Positions 41,077 to 52,678 of a stretch of 64,000 nt of DNA are shown one piece after another. The DNA is from Caldilineaceae bacterium. Lineage in GTDB: Bacteria > Chloroflexota > Anaerolineae > Caldilineales > Caldilineaceae. The stretch is from positions 124,001 through 188,000 of the forward strand of contig JAJDTL010000018.1 of assembly GCA_022827195.1 (NCBI GenBank), in the 5' to 3' direction. The notes below the pieces were generated by a model. The model made no database searches, had not been told where the DNA came from, and saw only the letters and a program-made list of their open reading frames with translations. The translations under genes and the position numbers were made by a program. Within the stretch, counting starts at the first letter, position 1. Every line of letters starts with the position of its first letter.

Positions 41077-42810
41077 ATGAAGACCGGTTTCACGCATTCA
41101 GTCGGGCTCCTTGCCCTGTTGTGTACCAGCGCATGCACTCTAATCACCTCTCGCGAGCCCGCTGCGACGCCTTCGCGGTCCGACCCGCCTGCCGTCATCC
41201 TGATTCCGGAAGAGGCCGCCGCGCCCGAACCATTGTCGGTTTTGACAGCGTCGCAGGTGACGGAAAGTCCCGGGCCAGCCTCGCGACAGGCAGAGAATGT
41301 TGCAATTGCAGGTGTCGCACAGGCCTCGGCCAACGGAGAAGAAGCACGGCTGGCTATTGATGGCGACCCTGAAACACACTGGAACGCCAATCTCCATGGG
41401 ATGCAGTGGCTTACGGTGTCACTTGATGCGCTCCATCTGACGGCGCGCATCGAGTTGGTCGTGGAGCAGTCGCCTGCCGGACCTACAACGCATGAGGTCT
41501 GGCTGGGAAACGGGACCGGAATGCAAACGTTGCACCGGCGGTTTTCCGAACAGTACACGGAACAGGGGCAAGTGCTGACGATCGAACTGGACCCGCCTGT
41601 CCGCGTCGATGCGGTGTCGATACTTACGCTCAGCAGTCCGAGCTGGGTCGCCTGGGGAGAGGCGCGTGTGATAGGCGTCGAGGCTGAAGAGCCGCAGCGA
41701 CCCGAAGGAGATTGGGCGTGGAGGCTGCAGAGAGTTGCCGGCGGGCTTGAGAAACCGGTCCACCTGGCACATGCCGGGGACGGCAGCGGGCGCCTCTTTG
41801 TCGTTGAGCATCCCGGCCGCATCCGAATTGTGAAGGACGGTTCGGTTGCGGAGAGGCCGTTTCTGGACATAACGGACCGCGTCAAGTGCTGTGGCGAAGA
41901 GGGGCTTGTCGGGCTTGCGTTTCCGGCGGGTTACGCCAACACGGGGCTCTTCTACGTGGGATACACAAACGCCGCGGGTGCGACAACGGTAAGTCGATTT
42001 GCGTCGACAAGCGACCCGGACGCGGCAGATCCCGGTAGCGAGGAGGTGTTATTGACTGTGAGCCAGCCGCGGGATAACCACAACGGCGGGCACATGGCGT
42101 TCGGTCCGCGGGACGGCTACCTCTACATTGGCATCGGCGACGGCGGTGAGACCGGAGTCGTCGTCACGCCAGGACTAGGGCCCGACACGCTATTGGGCAA
42201 GATTCTGCGAATCGATGTGGGGTCGGGCCCTGAGCCGTACCGCGTGCCGTCGGAGAATCCCTTTTTTGGCGACGCCGGCTTTCGAAGTGAGATTTGGGCG
42301 TCTGGCGTACGAAACCCCTGGGGTTTCGCCTTTGACCCAACGACCGGCGACCTGTACATCACCGACGTGGGCGACACACTTCATGAGGAGATAAACTTCC
42401 AGCCTGCGTCGAGCGCAGGGGGTGAGGATTACGGATGGCCGGCGATGGAAGGCCACGTCTGTTCACCTTTCTTTCCCACAAATTGCAGCGCCGACGGTTT
42501 GACGTTGCCTGTGGCGGCTTACGGTCATTCGCAAGGCTGCGCAATTGTCGGAGGCGCGGTCTACCGTGGAGCGAAACACGCTCACCTGAACGGTGCCTTC
42601 GTCTACGGTGATTTCTGTAGCGGCCGAATCTGGGCGCTGAAACGGTCACAGGACTCAAACGCAGGCTTTCGGCAGGATAGGTGGCAGAGCGAACTGCTGC
42701 TGCTTGGGCAGGCAGCCGTTCCGATGAGCAAGGTCGGAGTCGGCGAAGACGGCAGCCTGTATGCCTTGAACTACATGACCGGCTCGCTCTACGAGTTAAC
42801 TGATCGGTAG
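41077..42810 (+). CDS. Exported PQQ-type glucose/sorbosone dehydrogenase with discoidin-like domain
   Basis: A 577-residue exported protein. The signal peptide ends in a possible but weak lipobox (T-S-A-C near residue 20). Residues about 80-200 resemble an F5/8 type C (discoidin) sugar-binding domain: AIDGDPETHWNA and VDAVSILTLSS. The rest is a six-bladed glucose/sorbosone dehydrogenase propeller: GLEKPVHLAHAGDGSGRLFVVEHPG, CCGEEGLVGLAFP, DNHNGGHMAFGPRDGYLYIGIGDGG and the Arg/Asn-rich RNPWGFAFD. These enzymes oxidise sugars using PQQ. The discoidin module may hold it to a polysaccharide. The gene is isolated, with repeats on both sides. Confidence 0.87.
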   Translation: MKTGFTHSVGLLALLCTSACTLITSREPAATPSRSDPPAVILIPEEAAAPEPLSVLTASQVTESPGPASRQAENVAIAGVAQASANGEEARLAIDGDPETHWNANLHGMQWLTVSLDALHLTARIELVVEQSPAGPTTHEVWLGNGTGMQTLHRRFSEQYTEQGQVLTIELDPPVRVDAVSILTLSSPSWVAWGEARVIGVEAEEPQRPEGDWAWRLQRVAGGLEKPVHLAHAGDGSGRLFVVEHPGRIRIVKDGSVAERPFLDITDRVKCCGEEGLVGLAFPAGYANTGLFYVGYTNAAGATTVSRFASTSDPDAADPGSEEVLLTVSQPRDNHNGGHMAFGPRDGYLYIGIGDGGETGVVVTPGLGPDTLLGKILRIDVGSGPEPYRVPSENPFFGDAGFRSEIWASGVRNPWGFAFDPTTGDLYITDVGDTLHEEINFQPASSAGGEDYGWPAMEGHVCSPFFPTNCSADGLTLPVAAYGHSQGCAIVGGAVYRGAKHAHLNGAFVYGDFCSGRIWALKRSQDSNAGFRQDRWQSELLLLGQAAVPMSKVGVGEDGSLYALNYMTGSLYELTDR

Positions 42811-44415: not shown

Positions 44416-45636
44416 GTGAACGTAAAGACGAAACGGGCAATGGCAATTCGCAATGACGACAGCCACAGTTTCAAGGAAGCAGGAGCGGCGGCGGCTCAGT
44501 TTCATGGCTTAGACTGGACTGAGGCCGAAAAGGGACTGAGAGTCTGGCTGCTCTCCCCATACCATACCGGCAGCCACAGGGCGTGGGCGGAGGGGTATCA
44601 GCGCCACAGCAAGCATATTGTGCGTCTCTTGACATTGGCGGGGCGTTTCTGGAAGTGGCGCATGCAGGGAGGTGCGATCGAGCTGGCGGCGCAGGTGCAG
44701 TCGGAGTTGGCAGCCGGACCGCCCGACCTGGTTCTGGCGACCGATATGACACATTTGCCGGCCTGGCTGGCGCTCTCTCGGCGCACATTGCCGGCGAAAG
44801 TGCCGCTCGTGCTCTACATGCACGAGAACCAGCTCACATATCCGTGGCAAGAAGGTCAGAAGCCGGACCTGACCTATGCGATGATCAACTGGCTCGGTCA
44901 GCTCTGTTCGGACCGGATTCTGTTCAACTCCGAGTTTCATCGCCGCAGCTGGTTTGGGGCGCTGCCAAACCTGCTCAAGCATTTTCCGGACTACAACCAC
45001 TTGGAGCTGATTGAAGAGGTGAAGGCACGGGCGGGCGTTCTGCCGGTCGGCGTGGAACCCTTGCCGGGCCCGGGGCGACAAAGGCAGGCGGGCGCGCCGC
45101 TCATTGTCTGGAATCAGAGATGGGAGTACGACAAGCGGCCGCGGGCGTTTTTTGAACTGCTTTACAGGCTCGAACAGGATGCCCACGACTTTTCGCTGGC
45201 AGTTGCAGGCGAGAACTTTCGCAATTCGCCGGACGAGTTCGAGGAAGCGAGGGGACGGCTGGCGCACCGCATCGAGCATTGGGGCTATCTGCGGTCGCGT
45301 CAAGCCTACCTTGACCTGCTTCGGAGGGCCGATCTTGTTATCAGCACGGCGGGCCACGAGTTCTTCGGCATCAGCATACTCGAAGCGGTGCAGGCGGGCG
45401 CCTTTCCGCTGCTGCCAAACCGTCTAAGCTACCCGGAGCTGATCCCCGCCAGCCTTCACCCGGCGTGTCTGTACGACGATGAAGAAGAGCTGTTCCTCAT
45501 GGCGGCGGCGAGGTTAAGGATGCCGCGCGCGGCGCCGCCGTCGCTGCAGCGCTCAGTGCGCGAACGTTACAGCTGGCCCGTCGTCGCGGCAGCCTACGAT
45601 AGTTTTTTCGAATCGCTTGTTGATGCGGTAGGCTGA
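44416..45636 (+). CDS. Glycosyltransferase, DUF3524 family (putative tRNA-queuosine mannosyltransferase)
   Basis: A 406-residue GT-B glycosyltransferase. The N-terminal DUF3524 domain is clear: [35 protein letters not shown] and [12 protein letters not shown]. The C-terminal Rossmann half ends with [15 protein letters not shown], the nucleotide-sugar site. The human relative GTDC1 (QTMAN) mannosylates queuosine in tRNA-Asp. Bacterial homologues of the same family exist, so a queuosine-glycosylating role is a fair guess. The longest frame starts at GTG 44416. An ATG at 44440 is an equal candidate, since neither has a strong ribosome site. Confidence 0.82.
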
Positions 45637-46656: not shown

Positions 46657-49584
46657 ATGAATAACAAACTAACGTCACTCTTTTTCCAATTGCAGACGGT
46701 TCGGTTGGAGCCCGGCGCCGGCCGACTGTGGGTCACAGTGCTGCTGGCCGTACTGGTGCTGGCCAGTTGTTCCGACGGGGATGCCCAGGAGTCGGATGGA
46801 GCCCTGGAGGGCTTGCCCTTCAACCTCAACGGGCTCGAAGCTCCGCCGTTGGAGGAACCCGTGGCCTGGCGTTTGGGCCCGAGGCCGAATGGTTCGATCA
46901 AGACGGTTGTAGAGCACTATCTTCAGCACTATCAGCCGGAGGGCAAGCTGCCCAAGCTGTTCGAAACGACGCGTCTCTACGACCGCAACGGCGTGCTGCT
47001 GGCCGAGTTTTACGAAGAAGGGCGCCGGACCTGGGTCACCCTTGACCAGATATCGCCGGCGCTTGTCTCCGCAACCGTTGCCACGGAGGACGCTTCGTTC
47101 TTCACCAACCGGGGGGTGGACAGCCGCCGCATCGTCGGCGCGGCGCTGCAGAACGTGCAGACCCAGTCGATCGCGTCCGGCGCGAGCACTATCACCATGC
47201 AGCTGGCACGCAATCTTTTTCTGGATCCCAGCGAACGGTTCGAACAGACCGTCGATCGCAAGCTGCAGGAAATCGGACTGGCCCATGACCTTACAATATT
47301 GTTCAGCAAGGAAGAGCTGCTGGAAATCTATCTCAATCTTGTGAACTACGGACATCAGGCGTACGGCCCGGAAGCGGCCTCCCAGGTCTATTTTGGCAAG
47401 AGCGCGATCGACCTCAACTGGGCCGAGGCGACGATTCTGGCCGGCGTGCCTCAGCAGCCTGCCGCCTATGACCTTTTCAGCAACTTCGAAGCAGCCAAGG
47501 AACGCCAGCGCGTTGTGCTGGACCTGCTCGTGCGCCACGAAATGTTATCTCAGGTGGAGGCGGATGCCGTCTTCGGTGAAGAGATACTGCTCATTGGGTC
47601 CTCGCAAAAGAAGGACCTCTTGGCGCCGCACTTTGTTTTTTACGTCGAGAAAGCGTTGGAAGAGCAGATGGCTGAAGCACTGGGCATTGAAGTGGGACGC
47701 TGGGAGATGCGCCGGTCCGGCATGCACATCATTACAACGCTGGACATGCCCATGCAATGGTTGGCTGAGCTTGAATTGCAAAAGTGGATCGACAGGGTCG
47801 GTGAGGCGTATCGCATGACCAACGGCGCGCTCGTCGCCATCCAACCGCAGACGGGCGAGCTGCTGGCGATGGTAGGGGGCGTCGACTTCAACGAGGAGGA
47901 TGCGGGCCAGGTCAACCTTTCAACCAGTTTGCGCCAACCCGGCAGCTCCTTCAAACCAATCCTGTACGCGACTGCGCTCGGTGAGGACATGATTTCTCCG
48001 GCGACTGTGATATGGGACACGCCGACATCCTTTACGGTCGGCATGGGCCACGTCTACGTCCCGCGCAATTACGACCGCAAGTTTCACGGCCCCGTAACCG
48101 TCCGCACGGCACTGGCGAACAGCTACAATGTTCCGGCGGTGAAACTGCTGGCAACGCTCGGCAATGAGCACCTTGTGGCCAAAGCCAAAGAGTTCGGCAT
48201 TACAAGCTTTACCAGGGAACCGAACTCCTACGGCCTTAGCATTTCGCTGGGAGCGGCCGAAGTTTCCCTGCTGGAGCTTACGAATGCCTTCCGCACGTTC
48301 GCCAATCAGGGGCTCTATTCGGAACCCAGGTTTGCGCTCTTCATGGTCGACGATCTGGGCCGTTACCGCTCGACGCCCGAGGTCGAGCGCAAGAGAATCA
48401 TTTCGCCCGAGGTCGCCTTTCTGGTTGCCGACATTCTCAGCGACAACCAGGCCCGCAAGCCGGCCTTCGGACTCAACAGCTCGCTGAACCTGAGCATGCC
48501 GGCCGCTGCCAAGACCGGAACGACGACCAATTTCAAGGACAACTGGACGGTCGGCTTCACGCGCTATCTGGTCGCGGGTGTCTGGACGGGCAACAGCGAC
48601 GGCCAGACGATGTGGGGCAACAGCGGCGCCGCCGGAGCGGCCCCTCTCTGGCGCAATTTCATGGAGGCGGTAATCGAAGACAAGGGGATGCGCGAGTTGA
48701 TCGGCGCGCCGGACAATCCCAGTCTGTGGACATTTGAGGTACCGGACACCGTTGTTCAATTGCCCGACTGTCCACCTGCCGTGCAGTGCCGTGAGGGGGG
48801 CGAATACTTCAGCTCTAGCTGGTTGAGCAAGACGCGGGGGAATGGCCTGCTGGCCGGTACGGTCGTAACGGCCAGGACCCTCCCCACCCATTTTGCGCGT
48901 ACAAACGACTTCGTCGACTTTTCCTTTTGCACGGTGAATGATGAGGCCGGTGCAGGCAGGGGGGGAAGGACGTCCGGCCCGCCGGAAATCCGTTCTCTCC
49001 TGCGGCTTTCGAGCATGGTAGGCCTCTCCTTTCCGCCTGGTTACAGTACCGTCGGCCGACCGCTGCCCCCCAATACAGATCCGCCCCCCGAGACCGATGA
49101 CAGGGGAATAAACGTGCCGCCGCCTGTATTCAGGGAGGATCTCTACTATTATCCTGCGACAGAACTTGAGAAATTCCGTCTATTGTCGTGGAGCATGAAG
49201 GAAGGCATCCCAGTTTCGCTGGGATCGTGTTCCGACCTGCGTTACTATACTGCGAGGGCGGGCGACAGTTGGCGTGTTCTCGCACGAGCGCACGATCTGC
49301 CCGAAAGTGTGCTGCGCGGGGCCAATCTACACGTGCGCGGCGCGCTTCCGGGGGAAAGACTGCTTCTGCCGAGGGGAATTCCGATCCGCTATCACGTGGA
49401 CAGCATTCTGCACGAAGTGCAATCGGGCGATTCCTGGGTCAACATTGCAGCCAGGTACGACATTCCCGTGCGTCTGCTCCGGGCCGCCAACCCTGAGGCC
49501 GTGCGTGCCTACAACATACTTCGCCCCGGCGACCTCCTGCACGTGCCGGAGAATCTTGAACTCTACCAGAACCCTTTCGAATAG
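46657..49584 (+). CDS. Class A penicillin-binding protein with lipobox and two LysM domains
   Basis: A 975-residue bifunctional peptidoglycan synthase. The N-terminal hydrophobic segment ends in lipobox L-A-S-C (Cys38), not in a long anchor helix. The transglycosylase (about 100-290) has Glu144 in ATEDASFF and GASTITMQLARNLFL. The transpeptidase carries SSFK (Ser430-Lys433), SYN (489-491) and KTG (619-621). A linker region (about 700-860) is followed by two LysM wall-binding domains, GDSWRVLARAHDL (about 870-910) and GDSWVNIAARYDI (about 920-970). All catalytic motifs are intact. It lies upstream of a paralogue with the same N-terminal plan, 181 bases away. Confidence 0.92.
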   Translation: MNNKLTSLFFQLQTVRLEPGAGRLWVTVLLAVLVLASCSDGDAQESDGALEGLPFNLNGLEAPPLEEPVAWRLGPRPNGSIKTVVEHYLQHYQPEGKLPKLFETTRLYDRNGVLLAEFYEEGRRTWVTLDQISPALVSATVATEDASFFTNRGVDSRRIVGAALQNVQTQSIASGASTITMQLARNLFLDPSERFEQTVDRKLQEIGLAHDLTILFSKEELLEIYLNLVNYGHQAYGPEAASQVYFGKSAIDLNWAEATILAGVPQQPAAYDLFSNFEAAKERQRVVLDLLVRHEMLSQVEADAVFGEEILLIGSSQKKDLLAPHFVFYVEKALEEQMAEALGIEVGRWEMRRSGMHIITTLDMPMQWLAELELQKWIDRVGEAYRMTNGALVAIQPQTGELLAMVGGVDFNEEDAGQVNLSTSLRQPGSSFKPILYATALGEDMISPATVIWDTPTSFTVGMGHVYVPRNYDRKFHGPVTVRTALANSYNVPAVKLLATLGNEHLVAKAKEFGITSFTREPNSYGLSISLGAAEVSLLELTNAFRTFANQGLYSEPRFALFMVDDLGRYRSTPEVERKRIISPEVAFLVADILSDNQARKPAFGLNSSLNLSMPAAAKTGTTTNFKDNWTVGFTRYLVAGVWTGNSDGQTMWGNSGAAGAAPLWRNFMEAVIEDKGMRELIGAPDNPSLWTFEVPDTVVQLPDCPPAVQCREGGEYFSSSWLSKTRGNGLLAGTVVTARTLPTHFARTNDFVDFSFCTVNDEAGAGRGGRTSGPPEIRSLLRLSSMVGLSFPPGYSTVGRPLPPNTDPPPETDDRGINVPPPVFREDLYYYPATELEKFRLLSWSMKEGIPVSLGSCSDLRYYTARAGDSWRVLARAHDLPESVLRGANLHVRGALPGERLLLPRGIPIRYHVDSILHEVQSGDSWVNIAARYDIPVRLLRAANPEAVRAYNILRPGDLLHVPENLELYQNPFE

Positions 49585-49765
49585 CGTCCCCTCAAAAGGC
49601 AAGACTGCCCCACTTTTTGCTCCGGTTCGGTGGAACCGGCGCCCCCTTGTACTCGTTACTTCAATGCAGAGCCGGCGTTCCCGAAAGGGATATTGACCGG
49701 AGCGCAAGGTCGCTGAGAGGACGCGAGTCCGACCTCATTCCCATCACGGCAGAAACAAGTGCATC

Positions 49766-52678
49766 ATGCGCCACACGAATCCAGACCTGCGCCGCATTCG
49801 ACAGCTGCTGTTGCTGATCGTCCTGCTCGCTGCCGGGTGCAGCTCCAGGGAACGCGTTGTCGACAAGCGCCCGGCCATCGCGCTGGCGACAGTCGCCGAG
49901 GCCTATCTGCAACAGTTTCAGCCGGGCCCCGTCCCGCGCCTGTTTCAGACGACATTTGTCTACGACCGCAACGGCGTCCTGCTGGCTGAACTGATCGGGG
50001 AAGGCCGCCGCGAGTGGGTCCCGCTAGACCAGGTATCGCCGCATCTGATCAACGCGACCATTGCGACGGAAGACGCGACCTTCTTCACAAACCAGGGTGT
50101 TGACCCGATCAGGATCGCGGGCGCGGCGCTGCAGAACGTCGAGAGTGGCGAGATCGTCTCCGGTGCCAGCACGATCACGATGCAGCTGGCGCGCAACCTG
50201 TTTCTGGGTGTCGAAGAGCGGTACGATCAGACATTCGACCGCAAAATCATCGAAGCCGGGCTGGCGACCGAGCTGACGCAGGCCTACCATAAAGAAGAGT
50301 TAATGGAGATCTACCTGAATCTCCTGAACTATGGCAATCATTCTTACGGTCCCCAAGCGGCTGCGCGCAGCTACTTTGGCAAGTCGGCCAACGATTTAAA
50401 CCTAGCCGAAGCTACGCTGCTGGCCGGGATTCCCCAGTCACCGGCGCTGTTTGATCTGTTCGAGGACTTAGGGGCGGCCAAGGCCCGGCAGAGGGTCGTG
50501 CTTTCGCTGATGGTACGCCACGGCTTCCTGACGCTCGACGAGGCCAACGCCGTGTTCGGTACGCCCATACAGCTGAACGGTTCGCGCGAGCTTCCCCCGG
50601 TGCGTGCGCCTCATTTTGTCGAGTATGTCGTCCAGGAGCTGGAGAAAACACTGAGGGAGGGCTACGTTCGGCGCGGCGGGCTGCACATTTTCACCACGCT
50701 CGACCTGCAACTTCAGGAGACAGCTGAACGCATCGTCACTGACAAAGTCGAGGAGCTGCAACCGCGCTTCGACATGGATAATGGCGCGCTGGTCGCGCTT
50801 AGGCCCGGCACCGGGGAAATACTGGCGATGGTGGGCAGTGTAGACTACGACGACACCGATATTGACGGTCAGGTCAACGTTGCAATCAGCCCGCGCCAGC
50901 CGGGGAGCTCGATCAAGCCGCTGCTCTATGCGACTGCGCTCCACGACAACCTCATCAGCCCTGCCACAGTTCTGTGGGACACCCCGATCACCTACACGAT
51001 CAGCTCGATTGAAGAGTATGAACCAATCAATTACGACCGCAGAGTTCACGGTCCGGTCACAGCGCGCGCGGCCCTGGCCAATAGCTATAACATTCCTGCG
51101 GTGAAGCTACTTGACGCGGTTGGCGTCGAGAGAATGCTAGAAAGCGCGCGCTCGATGGGTGTGAGCAGCCTGCACCGCGGAACCGACTGGTACGGCCTGA
51201 GCCTGACCCTTGGCGGTGGCGAGATAACGCTGCTCGACTTGGCGACGGCCTACCACACGATGGCGAATGGCGGCCGCTTTCTTCCGCCGCGCTCGATCCT
51301 GACAATTACCGACGGACAAGGGTTGACCCAGGTGGAGAAAGCTGCCGACGAGGGAAAGCAGGTTCTTTCGGAAGCGGCGGCAACGCTGGTAACCGATATC
51401 CTCAGCGACAATCCAGCCCGTGTTCCGATGTTTGGCAGCCAAAGTCAGCTGACCCTCGACAGGCCGGTTGCGGCAAAGACGGGAACGACCGATAACAACC
51501 GGGACGCCTGGACGATGGGCTATACGCGATACCTCCTAGCCGGGGTATGGGTAGGCAATACAGATGGCCGCCCGATGCGAAACGCGACCGGGGCCGGGGC
51601 CGCGGCTCCGATCTGGAACGAGTTCATGAGGACAGTGCTGGCCGATACCACTTTTCTGGATGGGTTGGGCGCGCCGCAAGCGGAAGGAGCTTGGGAGTTC
51701 AGTCTAAGCGACGATGTCCAGAAGCTGGATGCTTGTCCCCCGGGCCTGACCTGCCGGCAGGGGGGCGGAGAGCTTTTCAGCGCTGCCTGGCTGGAGGCGG
51801 TCAATCCGAAGAGCGCCGGGAACGAGGCTGAACAGTCAATTGAGGAAGACCGAAATCCTGCAGTTGGTGAAGAGTCCCAAATCGGACGCGGCGAGGAGGC
51901 ATCGCCCCTGGTCGACAGTGTCGAATCCACACCATCGGCCCCAGTCTATTGGACGCGGCAGAGCGAATCGGGGGAAGAGACGCGTCTGCTTGGCTTTTGC
52001 GGCTTTGCCGAAGGGGCGGCACGAACTCTCCTGGCCCTTCCCGACCCGTTCGGCCTGCCGCAGCAATCGACCGAAGCGTGCCGACATTGCTGGCAAGTGG
52101 AAGGTGCGCAGGAAGAGCTCCTTGACGCCGACAGAATGCTGCGAGACCGGAGAGGCGCGCTGGCGTGGAACTTGGGCGCGAGTTTTCCGGTCTACCTTGG
52201 CCCGTGCGAGGAGATGGAGAGCCTGTCGGCTTTCACTGGATGGCGGGTGGCAATCGATTTTGCCAACGCAGGCGCCGACATTGCCGGCGCGTTGGCGCCG
52301 GGGCAGCTGGTAAGCGTGGGCAGTCAGATCGCCGAGGGCTCTGCTTTCTTCAATCTGGACCGGCTTTGGCACGATGCCCAGTGCCCCGGTCAGTACGTCA
52401 TGGGCCTTGCTCTGACCAGCAGCGGAGAAGCGCTGCCGGGCGTTCGAATTCGCCTAACCGACGCTTGGGACAACAGTTACGAGACTGTAAGCAAGAGCGG
52501 CACTTTAGACGCCGGTCGGTTCGACTTTCCAATCTACAGCCATGATTCCTCGCAGAACCTCCTCTTGCACATCCTGGACCAGAATGGTATTCCTCGCGGC
52601 CAGCCGATTCTCATCCCACATCGAACGGACAGTGCCAGTAACGCCCCCTGCCATCACGTTGTCGTCAGGCGCAGATGA
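49766..52678 (+). CDS. Class A penicillin-binding protein with lipobox, second paralogue
   Basis: A 970-residue bifunctional peptidoglycan synthase, closely related to the gene before it. The signal ends LLAAGC with lipid-anchor Cys25. The transglycosylase Glu is in ATEDATFF. The transpeptidase has SSIK (Ser381-Lys384), SYN (440-442) and KTG (571-573). The C-terminal part differs from its neighbour: no LysM is seen. There is a segment (LGASFPVYLGPC) resembling the neighbour's GIPVSLGSC, and the last 90 residues look like a beta-sandwich (GLALTSSGEALPGVRIRLTDAWDN). Ribosome site not strong. The pair probably arose by tandem duplication with later change in wall-binding ends. Confidence 0.92.
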   Translation: MRHTNPDLRRIRQLLLLIVLLAAGCSSRERVVDKRPAIALATVAEAYLQQFQPGPVPRLFQTTFVYDRNGVLLAELIGEGRREWVPLDQVSPHLINATIATEDATFFTNQGVDPIRIAGAALQNVESGEIVSGASTITMQLARNLFLGVEERYDQTFDRKIIEAGLATELTQAYHKEELMEIYLNLLNYGNHSYGPQAAARSYFGKSANDLNLAEATLLAGIPQSPALFDLFEDLGAAKARQRVVLSLMVRHGFLTLDEANAVFGTPIQLNGSRELPPVRAPHFVEYVVQELEKTLREGYVRRGGLHIFTTLDLQLQETAERIVTDKVEELQPRFDMDNGALVALRPGTGEILAMVGSVDYDDTDIDGQVNVAISPRQPGSSIKPLLYATALHDNLISPATVLWDTPITYTISSIEEYEPINYDRRVHGPVTARAALANSYNIPAVKLLDAVGVERMLESARSMGVSSLHRGTDWYGLSLTLGGGEITLLDLATAYHTMANGGRFLPPRSILTITDGQGLTQVEKAADEGKQVLSEAAATLVTDILSDNPARVPMFGSQSQLTLDRPVAAKTGTTDNNRDAWTMGYTRYLLAGVWVGNTDGRPMRNATGAGAAAPIWNEFMRTVLADTTFLDGLGAPQAEGAWEFSLSDDVQKLDACPPGLTCRQGGGELFSAAWLEAVNPKSAGNEAEQSIEEDRNPAVGEESQIGRGEEASPLVDSVESTPSAPVYWTRQSESGEETRLLGFCGFAEGAARTLLALPDPFGLPQQSTEACRHCWQVEGAQEELLDADRMLRDRRGALAWNLGASFPVYLGPCEEMESLSAFTGWRVAIDFANAGADIAGALAPGQLVSVGSQIAEGSAFFNLDRLWHDAQCPGQYVMGLALTSSGEALPGVRIRLTDAWDNSYETVSKSGTLDAGRFDFPIYSHDSSQNLLLHILDQNGIPRGQPILIPHRTDSASNAPCHHVVVRRR

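Follow-up and report, generated by a model that had tools for sequence, protein, structure and literature searches.

The window, the whole 64,000-nucleotide stretch of a Chloroflexota contig that was analyzed, carries two adjacent genes on the same strand whose products, here called P1 and P2, have the domain content of class A penicillin-binding proteins (PBPs). The positions of the genes and of their predicted parts are listed in Table 1. Pfam profiles place a GT51 transglycosylase domain and a transpeptidase domain in each protein with scores far over the cut-offs (E<1e-55 for PF00912 and E<1e-27 for PF00905 in each case), and a LysM domain at the end of P1 that is also found in P1-type relatives and in some other sequences. 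The catalytic residues of GT51 are intact (E144/D145 in P1, E102/D103 in P2), and the transpeptidase domains have the SxxK, SxN, and KTG motifs. When P1 and P2 were aligned with 34-44 other sequences, the catalytic residues of both domains were invariant, as were the R-K-E of motif III and the remaining GT51 motifs. The profiles and alignments thus confirm the initial annotation, which had described the transglycosylase and transpeptidase motifs of both proteins as intact. With the TIGR02074 model (PBP_1a_fam), P1 and P2 score 498.1 and 506.3, just under the curated cut-off of 508.75. The nearest named relative of P2 is encoded by an uncultured Caldilineaceae MAG (88% identity).

Table 1. Positions in the window of the P1 and P2 genes and of the predicted parts of their products
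Feature	Position	Strand	Details
P1 ORF	46657-49584	+	975 aa; GT51, transpeptidase, and C-terminal LysM
P1 lipoprotein signal peptide (predicted)	46657-46767	+	residues 1-37, ending ...LWVTVLLAVLVLAS; short h-region ending at the Cys
P1 lipobox Cys38	46768-46770	+	LAS^C; invariant in a 20-row alignment and in 87 readable clade members
P1 linker	46771-46989	+	63 residues from the Cys to the GT51 anchor; low-confidence in the AF2 model except for a helix at 80-92
P1 GT51 transglycosylase domain	46990-47526	+	residues 112-290; motif I E144; PF00912 E=9e-57
P1 transpeptidase domain	47824-48567	+	residues 390-637; S430xxK433, S489-Y-N491, K619-T-G621; PF00905 E=4.5e-29
P1 C-terminal LysM domain	49411-49548	+	residues 919-964; PF01476 E=9.5e-10
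P2 ORF	49766-52678	+	970 aa; GT51 and transpeptidase
P2 lipoprotein signal peptide (predicted)	49766-49837	+	residues 1-24, MRHTNPDLRRIRQLLLLIVLLAAG, then ^CSSRE
P2 lipobox Cys25	49838-49840	+	LAAG^C; same conservation as P1 Cys38
P2 linker	49841-49978	+	34 residues; disordered ~26-37, helix 35-49, clade motif EAYLQxYQPGPLPR
P2 GT51 transglycosylase domain	49979-50512	+	residues 72-249; motif I E102; PF00912 E=2e-56
P2 transpeptidase domain	50783-51628	+	residues 340-621; S381xxK384, S440-Y-N442, K571-T-G573; PF00905 E=2.9e-28
P2 C-terminal region	51846-52675	+	~residues 694-970; mostly low-confidence in the AF2 model

The AF2 model of P2 is confident over approximately residues 61-680, is disordered at ~25-37, and includes a moderately confident helix at 35-49. 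By structure matching, residues 55-680 of the model have the class A PBP fold. The matches include Acinetobacter baumannii PBP1A (3ue1; Z 46.9, rmsd 7.5 over 489 residues), entry 4oon (Z 45.6, rmsd 2.4 over 375 residues), and Escherichia coli PBP1b (3vma; Z 39.6, rmsd 7.2 over 594 residues). The layout of the P1 model resembles that of P2. No Pfam family matched the ∼280 C-terminal residues of P2, the last part of which, judged by eye, has a beta-rich, carboxypeptidase-regulatory-like look.

Lipobox cysteines and their conservation

The N-terminal hydrophobic segments of the two proteins had initially been described as ending in L-A-S-C and A-A-G-C. This description is accurate, and it places the lipobox Cys at position 38 of P1 (...RLWVTVLLAVLVLAS^CSDGDAQ) and at position 25 of P2 (...RIRQLLLLIVLLAAG^CSSRERV), where ^ marks the predicted cut. 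Both sequences have the basic n-region, the short h-region, and the lipobox Cys of bacterial lipoproteins. Read from the annotated ATG, P1 begins MNNKLTSLFFQLQTVRLEPGAGRLWVTVLLAVLVLAS^CSDGD and its n-region is long (∼22 residues), which counts somewhat against the lipoprotein reading. A shorter P1 that starts at an internal TTG is possible.

The comparison drew on GT51 proteins encoded in this genome and in 40 relatives, on 62 loci of named genomes, and on 39 loci added later from further members of the family and class. The lipobox proteins among them group in a single clade, and the Cys is present in 87/87 clade members with a readable N-terminus, which come from several families of one Chloroflexota class. 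Left out of this count are two members whose N-terminus is lost to a contig end or a stop, and locus L301, where a lipobox (LAS^C) sits in another frame just upstream of the ORF and a frameshift in the assembly is therefore likely. In a 20-row alignment of the clade, the Cys is the sole invariant column before column 58, and its neighbors vary: position -3 is mostly L/A/V, -2 is A/S, and -1 is G/A/S. Two P1-type genes (L037 and L043) encode Ser at -3 together with the lipobox Cys. As a control within the same genome, 27 of the top 30 SBP_bac_1 solute-binding proteins were found to carry the same lipobox consensus.

A chance origin of the lipoboxes in P1 and P2 was rejected, given the conservation of the Cys throughout the clade and the near absence of such a Cys in 95 other class A PBPs. 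The initial annotation had likewise argued against chance because the feature occurs in both paralogues. That conclusion holds, as judged from the 87 members and the sole invariant column. However, the paralogues are not independent evidence, since the lipobox apparently arose once, prior to their divergence. Loss of the Cys in homologues, or an uncleaved helix in the family, had been named as grounds for abandoning the idea; the Cys is retained in every readable member, and uncleaved helices are not seen inside the clade.

One P1-type gene, L050 (G022:C14 ∼81300-82109), is broken by an in-frame TAG, which reflects either decay or an assembly error. The same lipobox pattern picks out three further predicted lipoproteins in the window, at 41134 (+), 35344 (-), and 23237 (-), one of which is a glucose/sorbosone dehydrogenase that also carries an F5/8 type C domain.

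Contrast with transmembrane enzymes and distribution of the clade

Class A PBPs usually have a single N-terminal transmembrane (TM) anchor, which is a customary trait of the class and has no part in catalysis, and P1 and P2 depart from this rule. All 95 non-clade class A PBPs examined carry an ordinary uncleaved TM helix, including the third paralogue of the same genome (G000:C2), and both class B PBPs of this genome also have plain TM anchors. The TM-group class A PBPs encoded in the same genomes do not have the lipobox Cys. Outside Chloroflexota, the comparison comprised Patescibacteria loci, which are of the TM type. Judged by their predicted anchor, P1 and P2 are a variant of class A and not standard members. 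A lipobox regular expression matches just two of the 95 sequences (L103 and L109), and both were rejected as lipobox proteins because the TM helix runs on past the Cys.

When measured by a simple maximal-segment method, the hydrophobic segment has a median length of 17 residues in the clade versus 30 in TM relatives (p ∼6e-17, with relatedness ignored). The distance from the end of this segment to the GT anchor is 33 residues in the clade versus 14 in the others. The clade linker is polar or charged, begins directly after the Cys, and is mostly 33-63 residues long; its motif (Table 1) was found in 0 of the 132 non-clade sequences compared. A His-to-Asn change in motif I was considered as another mark of the clade and was rejected, as it is common to many TM relatives. 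The earlier suggestion that a lipid-held enzyme would face the membrane differently is correct in that the anchor differs. However, the linker differs as well, and thus the protein would be tethered rather than simply re-oriented.

The lipobox clade has FastTree support of 98-100 and, under LG+C20 in IQ-TREE, an SH-aLRT value of 97, with one state change. A profile of the signal, linker, and GT domain was used to search genomes of the family, class, and phylum. In the family, clade matches score at least 387 bits and include the N-terminus (one contig-truncated match scores 308), whereas non-clade matches score at most 249 bits and begin after the N-terminus. At least one clade member is present in 40/46 family genomes, and tandem double copies are common within the home family. 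The profile found no member in the congeneric single-contig genome G004, in any of the four genus g26 genomes (G041-G044), or in the 86%-complete genome G048. G004 and the g26 genomes have just one other class A PBP each, and the lack of the lipoprotein pair from G004 and g26 suggests that it is dispensable in some lineages. Beyond the home family, the clade extends within the class to families f97, f107, f15, and f100, and to f106 with a likely frameshift. Among 300 genomes across the phylum, the best profile matches outside the home genome were of the TM type.

The nearest sister of the clade, L300 (G382:C181:34400-38300), has neither a lipobox nor a typical long TM helix. Its N-terminus resembles a cleavable signal peptidase I signal (..PQSALAL), and the protein is possibly an unanchored class A PBP; this single sequence is too few to establish the ancestral state.

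Within the clade, the membrane-facing GT51 jaw has also changed. The conserved flap Arg (SaMGT Arg117) is replaced by Gly or Ala, mostly Gly, in 79/82 later members; in motif II, all 82 have Met in place of the first Gln (SaMGT Gln136). SaMGT numbers were assigned by counting from the Glu of motif I and the S-T-x-T string of motif II. Arg and Gln are still present at both sites in the lipoprotein members that branch early (f100 and G484). With a root on the TM side, the lipid anchor would therefore seem older than the jaw changes.

Predicted anchoring and polymerase function

The genome encodes the lipoprotein pathway, with two matches to Lgt and one to LspA. The second Lgt-family protein (G000:C37:76051-76740, 80 bits) is divergent and might serve some lipoproteins. 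Omp85 was not detected in the genome, which makes an outer-membrane destination unlikely, and the Chloroflexota are taken to have neither BAM nor LPS (PMC13319060). Because Lgt and LspA are encoded and Omp85 was not found, the enzymes are expected to be lipid-anchored in the cytoplasmic membrane, on its outer leaflet, where lipid II resides. The explanation that we consider likely is that P1 and P2 are class A PBP lipoproteins on this leaflet that polymerize and cross-link peptidoglycan.

Under this explanation, the proteins would be exported by Sec through their lipoprotein signal peptides, Lgt would place diacylglycerol on the lipobox Cys, and LspA would then cut before it. The mature enzymes would hang by their acyl chains and a flexible linker, from which the GT51 jaw could still dip into the membrane for lipid II while the transpeptidase cross-links the product. 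The LysM domain of P1-type proteins may add grip on peptidoglycan. Lipid and linker would have replaced the TM helix once, in the ancestor of the Chloroflexota clade, and would have been retained through duplication. More tentatively, the jaw may have compensated later for this replacement (Arg117 to Gly, Gln136 to Met), leaving a natural polymerase on a lipid tether, a scenario to which we give somewhat less than even weight.

Different readings of the N-terminus must be weighed against lipid anchoring. It is very unlikely that the segment escapes cleavage and remains a signal-anchor helix like that of ordinary class A PBPs, with a Cys that is incidental. Incidental cysteines do exist: the helix of E. 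coli PBP3 (FtsI) contains a lipobox-like Cys that is without clear physiological importance, and a Cys of this kind occurs by chance in the TM enzymes L103 and L109. Moreover, the segments of P1 and P2 resemble TM anchors in being hydrophobic and preceded by basic residues. However, these segments are short, stop at the Cys, and give way directly to a polar or charged linker; the Cys persists without exception in a fast-evolving region; and TM groups of the same genomes lack it. It is extremely improbable that the lipobox is real but the proteins have left the cytoplasmic membrane for another site, such as an outer layer of a multilayered envelope. Such an envelope, with layers of unknown composition, is described for Litorilinea aerophila of the Caldilineae (PMC13319060), but GT51 requires membrane-bound lipid II, and the lack of an Omp85 match in the genome, like the reported lack of BAM and LPS in Chloroflexota, argues against this location.

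It is also unlikely that the lipoproteins have ceased to be glycan polymerases and act mainly as lipid-tethered transpeptidases or scaffolds with an altered GT domain. GT activity cannot be assumed, because the clade jaw departs from the consensus at the flap Arg. A Gln136Glu change in SaMGT abolished polymerization (PMC6053601). In addition, removal of the anchor from Streptococcus pneumoniae PBP2a leaves the enzyme severely impaired, with shorter strands (Helassa 2012 as cited in PMC4632607). As the anchor matters for GT activity in this one tested TM enzyme, polymerization by a lipid-anchored enzyme might be weak. However, the catalytic Glu, motif III, and the other GT51 motifs are invariant, and early-branching lipoproteins retain both Arg and Gln. 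The solved PBP1a of entry 4oon also has Met at the motif II position, and thus the Gln-to-Met change need not inactivate, which weakens the argument from this residue.

P1 and P2 share domain order, catalytic motifs, and fold with class A PBPs (the PBP1A family of TIGR02074; 3ue1, 3vma). However, the described enzymes are anchored by one TM region (PMC4632607), whereas P1 and P2 have a lipobox and a long linker. The literature searched, which consisted of open-licence papers, yielded no class A lipoprotein PBP. The closest precedent is the class B mycobacterial PBP-lipo (MAB_3167c), which, like P1 and P2, is a high-molecular-weight PBP whose lipoprotein signal has a conserved Cys. In Mycobacterium abscessus it is needed for normal peptidoglycan synthesis and division; its lipidation is putative, and the protein is found in both fractions (PMC9170245). 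PBP-lipo has only a transpeptidase and no GT51 domain, whereas P1 and P2 both have GT51. LpoA and LpoB are likewise lipoproteins, but Lpo proteins are separate outer-membrane activators of TM-anchored PBPs and not synthases. LpoP is similar to P1 and P2 in being a lipoprotein that works in class A PBP synthesis (PMC7267771). Anchor-less PBP2a resembles the clade in being a class A PBP that lacks a TM helix; it is artificial, unanchored, and strongly impaired (PMC4632607), whereas the clade would be a natural swap of the anchor for a lipid.

A natural lipid-anchored clade would allow direct tests of what the anchor contributes to processivity, mobility, and lipid II capture. If the TM helix was replaced with compensation in the jaw, these enzymes would show which steps of processive glycan synthesis depend on the helix and which do not. 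Peptidoglycan polymerases would also join the substrates of the lipoprotein pathway, and inhibition of LspA should therefore hit cell-wall synthesis directly in these bacteria. The clade bears, moreover, on the envelope of filamentous Chloroflexota, which is poorly understood.

The genome encodes two FtsW/RodA proteins, each sharing a contig with a class B PBP, which suggests that the lipoprotein class A enzymes are probably accessory; their absence from some near-complete genomes agrees with this role. The product of the next gene downstream from P2 (52952-54775) combines LysM and fasciclin domains and may share the same envelope function. A protein encoded elsewhere in the window, at 44416-45636, is homologous to the tRNA-queuosine alpha-mannosyltransferase family (PF12038, E=2e-57), here in a bacterium.
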